Source: Bacillota bacterium (GTDB lineage Bacteria > Bacillota > DTU025). From it: a stretch of DNA of 52,019 nucleotides. Below, piece after piece: positions 27,474-28,868 of the stretch. The DNA lies in NCBI GenBank assembly GCA_028709305.1, contig JAQVXE010000006.1:1-52019 (forward strand), given 5' to 3'. Position 1 is the stretch's first letter; each line of letters opens with the position of its first letter. The notes under the pieces are model-generated. The model did no database searches. It was not told the origin of the DNA and saw only the letters and a list, made by a program, of their open reading frames with translations. The position numbers were made by a program, and so were the translations under genes.

Positions 27474-27561
27474 AATCGACCACCTCCGGATGAGGATTTC
27501 GTCAAGAGAAAGCGGAATCCTCTGAGCTGTCCAAGCCCATAGGGAGCGTCCCAATATATGG

Positions 27562-27591
27562 TTGACACATATGATGTGGTTATGGTAAAAT
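27562..27591 (+). promoter_or_regulatory. Sigma-A promoter of transposase-like gene
   Basis: TTGACA at 27562-27567 and TAAAAT at 27586-27591 have an 18-bp spacer and an extended TGG before the -10. The -35 overlaps the left terminal repeat. Confidence 0.75.
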
Positions 27592-27624
27592 GTGGGCAAT
27601 CACCTTGCCGGAGGTATTCGCCCT

Positions 27625-28677
27625 ATGGAGTTACCCCTGTCACTGCTCAGGTCTGATATTTCCTCGACTTTCCGCATATGGCCGGAGGGAGAGAGAATTG
27701 GCACGCTCGATGTTGTTTACGTCAAGAGCCACAATCCTCTGGGCCCGTTACCCGAGCCCATTATTTGGCGTCGGAAGCTTCCGCTCTTTGTGGGTGAGGT
27801 CCGAGAGGCCGCAATGCCCCATGGGCCCAGGTGCCCGGATTGCAAAGGCACACGGGTTGTGCGAAACGGGAAACGCAAGGGTATACAGCGCTATCGTTGC
27901 AAGGAATGCAGGAGATGCTTTACTGAACTCACGGGCACACTGTTTGAGGGATTGCACAAGCGAGAGGAGTTTCTTCGTTTTTGCGTGTGCATGGTAAGGG
28001 GACTTTCAGTGCGCCGAGCTGCCCAGGAAGCCGGGATTTCCAAGAACACATCTTTCGATTGGCGGCACAGGATAATATCTGTGCTCGCAAAGGCCGATTC
28101 CGATGTCAGGCTCGATGGAATAGTTGAGATAGCCCAGTGGCCGTTTATTCTAATGGACAAGGGCCAGCACGGGCAGGCCCCAAGATCTTCATCTCGCAAA
28201 CGCCGACGATACTCCAGCTTCCTCCGGAACGATCCTGATCAGCAGAAGGGCTTCCTCCTTTTTGCGATAGACAGAACTGGAAGAGCACGCGCCGAGCTAA
28301 TAATACCTGAGGACGGCAGGACATTTGGGTCGGCCATGAGAAACATCGTCTCGAAGAATGCCAAGGTATGCGCGAGCAAGGGACCTGGCATATGGCGCCC
28401 GGTCACGGACTACCCTGAGCCTATCTACTGGCAAGGATTGTGGAAAGGGCGGAAGTACGTGAAAGACCAAGCGTTAATGCACCCGCTCTTTCATTCGAAC
28501 AATGCTAGGTGGTTGATATACGAGTTTCGGAACTGGATGAGACGGTTCTGCGGCGTATCCACCAAGTATCTGCTCAGATATGTATCGTGGTTCTGGCGAG
28601 TGGTATCCTATGGCTTTATGAGGGATGAGCATGCGGCGAAAGTTGTTCTCTTTGATGCCCTGGGGTCAACCTCTTGA
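27625..28677 (+). CDS. IS1595-like transposase, catalytic residues apparently lost
   Basis: Protein of 350 residues. After an unusual N-terminal extension of about 65 residues there is a zinc ribbon (CPDCKGTRVV, YRCKECRRCF) and a helix-turn-helix (LSVRRAAQEAGISKNTSFDW). A region aligning with the IS1595/ISXO2 transposase core follows, ending with HSNNARWLIYEF and GVSTKYLLRYVSWF, like the conserved C-terminus. The expected VEVDET is VEIAQW, and the expected second acidic motif (TDxxxAY) reads ASKGPGIW, so the DDE triad is not apparent. The frame is fully open and has a strong promoter. The start is ATG at 27625 with GGAGG upstream; an upstream GTG at 27592 abuts the -10 and is rejected. It could be a fixed, DNA-binding derivative of a transposase. 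Confidence 0.72.
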   Translation: MELPLSLLRSDISSTFRIWPEGERIGTLDVVYVKSHNPLGPLPEPIIWRRKLPLFVGEVREAAMPHGPRCPDCKGTRVVRNGKRKGIQRYRCKECRRCFTELTGTLFEGLHKREEFLRFCVCMVRGLSVRRAAQEAGISKNTSFDWRHRIISVLAKADSDVRLDGIVEIAQWPFILMDKGQHGQAPRSSSRKRRRYSSFLRNDPDQQKGFLLFAIDRTGRARAELIIPEDGRTFGSAMRNIVSKNAKVCASKGPGIWRPVTDYPEPIYWQGLWKGRKYVKDQALMHPLFHSNNARWLIYEFRNWMRRFCGVSTKYLLRYVSWFWRVVSYGFMRDEHAAKVVLFDALGSTS

Positions 28678-28854
28678 CTTCGCAGAGCAGACCATATGTG
28701 GTATTCGCCAGGTGAACGAGGTGAGGATTGGGCTAATGCAATAGGGGAGCAGTTGGTCGGCGGCAGGTTTGGATCTCGTGCTGTAAGTGCTAGTTCAATG
28801 TCTTAAGATAGGGCTTTGGGCGGAAAGCATCAACCCGAAATTGGGACAAACCGT

Positions 28855-28868
28855 ATGCGGGCCCGCAT
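28855..28868. promoter_or_regulatory. 14-bp perfect palindrome
   Basis: ATGCGGGCCCGCAT lies 86 bp before the kinase start and 7 bp outside the right terminal repeat of the IS-like element. It is probably an operator or part of a structured leader; no known regulator site is recognised. Confidence 0.45.

Follow-up and report, generated by a model that had tools for sequence, protein, structure and literature searches.

The locus between the PAP2 and pfkB genes of a Bacillota bacterium of the DTU025 lineage probably encodes a vertically inherited, domesticated DNA-binding protein that descends from an IS1595 transposase, is catalytically dead and regulates its own expression, a reading to which we assign a probability of about 60%. 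The gene lies in a window of 52,019 nucleotides, which is the whole stretch of DNA that was analysed (contig JAQVXE010000006.1, assembly GCA_028709305.1).

The element, its ends and its protein

The reading frame runs without a stop on the forward strand from an ATG at 27,625 to a TGA at 28,677 (350 aa), and a GGAGG ribosome-binding site, identified by direct reading, stands 10 nt 5' of the ATG (27,610-27,614, +). At the borders of the element, GTCCCAATATATGGTTGAC (27,548-27,566) and the reverse complement of the right end, GTCCCAATTTCGGGTTGAT, are identical at 15 of 19 positions, and a genome pattern search returns these ends at 27,548-27,565 (+) and 28,830-28,847 (-). The terminal repeat reaches ~10 bp farther outward on each side, where it forms a degenerate CATAnnnnCTGTC... 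box; the left box spans 27,538-27,564 (+; core GTCCCAATATATGGTTGA at 27,548-27,565, from the box search and direct reading) and the right box 28,831-28,857 (-; core at 28,830-28,847, from the pattern and box searches). Both ends are present in most intact copies of the family. The IS1595 family makes an 8-bp target site duplication (PMC8101967; Siguier 2009 cited there). Inspection by eye showed none at the window copy, nor at the copies for which both flanks were printed, and the copies may be too old.

To judge from its sequence, the protein is clearly homologous to IS1595 transposases. A zinc ribbon of the CxxC...CxxC type with invariant cysteines occupies residues 70-95 in the profile models (27,832-27,909, +; 70-96 in the profile search), and its score of 49 bits against NF050000, the NCBIfam IS1/IS1595 zinc domain (cut-off 28), identifies it as IS1595-type, with Pfam zinc-ribbon models scoring 14.9-25.4 bits, under their own cut-offs. 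The helix-turn-helix region comprises helices 113-159 (27,961-28,101, +; from the structure model and the profile search, which places the motif at ~125-150). Over the transposase as a whole, the protein scores 68.7 bits (E 6e-19) on the IS1595 model NF033547, against a cut-off of 75 and 214 bits for a canonical relative (L174), and 13.1 bits on PF12762, against a cut-off of 27; all class members except one likewise score below the curated IS1595 family cut-off. The AlphaFold model of the 350-aa protein (pLDDT 78.6, pTM 0.75) keeps the strand and helix order of an RNase H-like domain at residues 166-308 (28,120-28,548, +; structure model and Foldseek), and the catalytic positions fall within it. 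The best PDB match in Foldseek is the IS256-family transposase ISCth4 (probability up to 0.97, E ~1e-3), followed among DDE transposases by a far weaker match to Sleeping Beauty; no Foldseek match passes E 0.001. Since the RNase H-like core is kept and the catalytic acids are gone, the fold is present without the active site.

The alignment with canonical relatives locates this loss. At the first catalytic position the window protein reads VEIAQW where the relatives have VE-x-DET, with Ala170 in place of Asp (28,132-28,134, +), and at the second it reads CASK against C[TS]D, with Ser251 in place of Asp (28,375-28,377, +). What we take to be the third position, from the alignment together with the identity of the family's third residue, is Arg295 (28,507-28,509, +), which replaces the Asn, or its equivalent, of the HIQ[NH]-x-N motif. 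No class member detected in the eight genomes that carry the family has the full DDE-type (or DDN) set. At the first position the residue is A, N, S, V, G, H or M, with D in a single case; the second shows free variation, and R, K and N account for most residues at the third. Residues of the structure that flank these positions are retained across the family. The sequence-only reading had reported the near-matching ends, the intact frame with its zinc ribbon and helix-turn-helix, and the replacement of the acidic motifs, all of which stand.

A catalytic triad at shifted positions, which that reading had named as evidence against itself, is ruled out by the alignment, which contains no newly conserved acids. 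It is likewise very improbable that the protein still catalyses transposition by means of other residues. This explanation draws on the fact that copies and box pairs have spread though the sole recognised protein is without the canonical residues. However, E168 and D216, which alone among the acids are nearly invariant, are common in canonical relatives too and are thus structural rather than replacements, the canonical positions vary freely, and, although one member (L019) retains the first Asp and members of the L010 group carry Glu at the second position, no member has both.

Catalytic loss and selection across the class

Relatives of the window protein occur in eight of the 12 class genomes, which places them in six genera and two families. 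The sample consists of draft assemblies with many contigs, five of the 12 failing to reach 90% completeness or to stay within 5% contamination, and repeats are likely to be collapsed in them. A tree inferred with a fast method places all class members on the same side of a single branch (support 85) and shows the copies clustering by host lineage. On this phylogenetic evidence, catalytic loss is ancestral to the class-wide family rather than private to the window copy. The sequence-only reading had proposed that catalysis was lost and the frame then selected; selection is borne out by the stationary orthologues described next, but the loss is class-wide and not an event of this copy.

Selection was measured on two genes, L003 in the window's genome (G000) and L006 in its congener G002, which are orthologous by position: a 2.5-kb alignment spans the gene and its flank, and three neighbour genes match. 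Their dN/dS is 0.223 (bootstrap 0.161-0.308), with values of 0.151 (0.090-0.247) in the RNase H and C-terminal part, 0.19 in the zinc ribbon and helix-turn-helix part and 0.59 in the N-terminal arm. Their dS of 0.639 is close to the 0.625 of the adjacent gene, as expected of a copy that stayed in place. Upstream of L003, G000 retains the promoter but no longer a recognisable box. In addition, paralogues in G008 have dN/dS of ~0.18-0.32 (NG86). Substitution rates thus indicate that the family proteins are under purifying selection, including in the dead domain, and for the one orthologous pair this is firm.

The history of the window copy can be read from its site. PAP2 and pfkB are adjacent, with little between them, in six of the seven other family genomes (G002 to G007), which makes the element an intruder at this site; comparison with G002, where only a relic remains, gives an approximate insertion extent of 27,522-28,860. 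The PAP2-pfkB gap of G002 is ~216 bp and includes this relic of the window frame (blastn E 5e-6), which under standard scoring reaches 44, against 19.3 +/- 2.1 and a maximum of 30 in 2000 dinucleotide shuffles. A lenient alignment score of the relic did not beat shuffles; the relic is accepted because standard scoring and blastn agree, and the main selection argument therefore rests on L003/L006. Given the relic, the insertion probably predates the split from G002, and a dS of 0.63 between the species corresponds to ~0.3 substitutions per site on each line. None of 500 unconstrained frames simulated at 0.3 substitutions per site was stop-free, so selection has most likely preserved the window frame, to judge from its persistence since an insertion whose date rests on a single 57-bp relic.

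These results make it quite improbable that the gene belongs to an ordinary decaying insertion sequence whose frame has not yet been broken. Truncation or a frameshift affects many copies elsewhere and the same insertion has decayed in G002, as this explanation would have it, but it does not account for the dN/dS of 0.22 in the stationary orthologues, for the failure of neutral frames to stay intact at the age that the relic implies, or for an ancestral loss common to many intact frames.

Other copies differ in number and condition among the genomes. G000 holds a second copy on contig C92 (50% identical), in which a stop lies just 5' of the first ATG, a further one on C147 (46% identical) and one broken copy; several identical mobile copies, which the sequence-only reading had also named as evidence against its case, are absent from this genome, where the other copies are 46-50% identical or broken. 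G007 contains ~8 copies, most of them 87-95% identical to each other, with several contigs breaking inside copies, and G008 contains six, ~79-87% identical, at different loci; several copies in both genomes are broken, as in an ordinary insertion sequence. No neighbour gene is conserved among the copies, whose contexts differ except in the L003/L006 pair. At four G007 copies (L128, L130, L131 and L144), similarity between copies continues for ~76-131 bp beyond the promoter-side box; the true ends of the elements may thus lie farther out there, or the elements may adjoin another repeat. Two G008 copies, L025 (C21) and L027 (C37), share ~140 bp of extra left-side similarity compared with the other copies.

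The spread within lineages after catalytic loss (~8 copies in G007, six loci in G008) favours a further explanation, in which selection acts at the level of the element: the dead protein would aid its own family, as a repressor or end-binding partner, and an unseen active transposase would move all elements with such ends in trans. Two box-pair sites of G002 that are empty in G001 point the same way, as does a truncated 165-aa fragment with an STD motif in G003 (L226, C11:2958-3455), which may be the remains of a canonical IS1595-type transposase and may mean that such a relative was once present in the class. However, neither of two curated models finds a complete canonical IS1595 transposase in the 12 class genomes, and L003 and L006 sit at a fixed site, with the upstream box unrecognisable in G000, yet are constrained. 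We therefore regard element-level selection as rather unlikely, and favour a domesticated protein that is kept in place by selection.

Catalysis-free relatives also occur outside the class, in G078, G348, G150 and a Gemmatimonadetes genome, which suggests that such losses may be common. Those of G078 (L177 and L181) are IS1595-like proteins from a distant Bacillota family, and L177 is flanked by inverted repeats CTGTCCGNNNNNCGTGTTGG that match at 16 of 20 positions. The two copies in G150 (L176 and L180) have the zinc ribbon, helix-turn-helix and C-terminal motif, and most of their RNase H-like core is gone. The relative from another phylum (L058, Gemmatimonadetes MAG JADGQX010000225.1) has an intact long frame. 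A literature search whose reach ended at subscription journals found no description of catalysis-free IS1595 proteins.

The promoter and the dispersed boxes

The promoter of the window gene (27,562-27,591, +) overlaps the left end of the element. Its -35 hexamer, TTGACA (27,562-27,567), lies inside the terminal repeat and is separated by an 18-bp spacer from an extended -10, TGGTAAAAT (27,583-27,591), for a total of 11 of 12 consensus bases, in agreement with the consensus extended -10 promoter that the sequence-only reading had placed at this end. The arrangement recurs in all 18 copies examined: on its inner edge the terminal repeat carries a TTGACA-like -35, followed after 17-18 bp by a TG-extended -10.

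Boxes of the same kind are dispersed through several genomes. A search with the outward-extended repeat CATAnnnnCTGTCnnAnTnnnnGGTTG (~27-30 bp, up to two mismatches), controlled by the reversed pattern, found 28 boxes against 0 in G000, 22 against 1 in G002, 21 against 1 in G006 and 20 in G007 (controls 0-1). G003 has an intact gene and two boxes against two in the control, so the link between gene and boxes is not strict. Half of the 28 boxes in G000 form facing inverted pairs that resemble REPINs; close facing pairs number seven in G000, seven in G002 and six in G006, and their members are mostly 80-280 bp apart, with one pair at 610 bp. No shared sequence was detectable among the spacers of these pairs, or between them and the full element.

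The boxes are conserved in place. Orthologous boxes of G000 and G002 share 93.6% identity, compared with 83.5% for flanks and 55-71% for short spacers, and mismatches number 27 of 420 positions in boxes against 832 of 5049 in flanks (p = 3e-9). In G001, a congener in which no gene copy was detected, boxes are absent at the two syntenic sites tested, which are the sites noted above as box pairs in G002. Because the boxes are the element's own ends, their spread could merely record past transposition.

Two further observations concern the surroundings of boxes. A lineage-specific box variant, CATTGCGGCTGTGTCAGTTGGCGGTTG, occurs several times in 26 kb around the only copy in G005 (L206 and L207, C40:7750-33892). 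At one site shared by G000 (L091, C181:46962-49103) and G002 (L092, C331:585-2289), a gene that we take from its translation to be S41-peptidase-like lies between two facing boxes, in the manner of a passenger. A longer partner element with its own transposase was considered for these box-bounded regions of 2.1 kb (G000) and 1.7 kb (G002) and rejected, as they carry this gene instead.

The sequence-only reading had suggested DNA binding for self-regulation or for control of the neighbouring kinase gene. Self-regulation is likely in view of the promoter embedded in the terminal repeat, but the likely targets now extend to boxes dispersed across the genome. Nothing apart from proximity speaks for control of the kinase gene, pfkB, and no sign that the element regulates pfkB or PAP2 emerged. 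The sequence evidence suggests that the family proteins probably act as DNA-binding proteins on these ~27-30-bp boxes. The zinc ribbon and helix-turn-helix would bind the box, and the dead RNase H-like domain with the C-terminal helices would maintain a dimer linking the two boxes of a pair. At the left box, binding would switch off the protein's own promoter, and at dispersed boxes it would be useful to the cell, for example in local control of transcription or in DNA looping.

The simplest reading of how copies and box pairs spread after catalytic loss is an enzyme acting in trans. It is possible, though we think it unlikely, that the locus forms part of a two-part system like that of REPINs, in which a selected, non-catalytic IS1595-derived protein and the inverted box pairs that it binds still spread through another enzyme or through unusual chemistry.

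Relation to known systems

The element is IS1595-like by descent, and resembles the ISXO2-like members in its zinc ribbon, helix-turn-helix, RNase H-like order, C-terminal FxGVxTKYL motif and single frame between inverted repeats (PMC8101967). In L057, a canonical DDE member of a Desulfuromonadales genome, GTCCCAATTAGCTGTTG stands just 5' of the frame and is close to the window box. Unlike IS1595, the family here has lost catalysis throughout, scores below the cut-off, shows selection on a stationary copy and yielded no 8-bp duplication; because it departs from IS1595 in catalytic residues and curated score, the protein is not filed as an IS1595 transposase. IS1595-type MITEs are also short sequences bounded by element ends, but the box pairs differ in their unrelated spacers and in the conservation of boxes at orthologous sites.

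TnpA_REP (RAYT) with its REP and REPIN sequences is alike in having a transposase-derived gene that is kept like a host gene and bordered by boxes of the same kind as those dispersed, as short intergenic sequences, in inverted pairs with variable spacers (PMC8266576, PMC3116915). It has been called the first prokaryotic domesticated transposase, and its catalytic centre is kept (PMC8266576). TnpA_REP belongs to the HuH enzymes, has a conserved catalytic centre and usually occurs in one copy, whereas the window family is of the RNase H type, non-catalytic and present in several copies; the window protein is an RNase H-fold IS1595 homologue and has no HuH motif with tyrosine, and the boxes, unlike those of the REP system, are not themselves palindromes. 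By analogy, the workings of the system described here would be closest to those of TnpA_REP and its REPINs, though the fold differs and catalysis is absent.

RNase H-type transposases that have turned into plain DNA-binding proteins are known in eukaryotes. The family described here raises the question of how elements spread after catalytic loss and, if our reading is true, it would mean that bacterial RNase H-type transposases can also become plain DNA-binding proteins.
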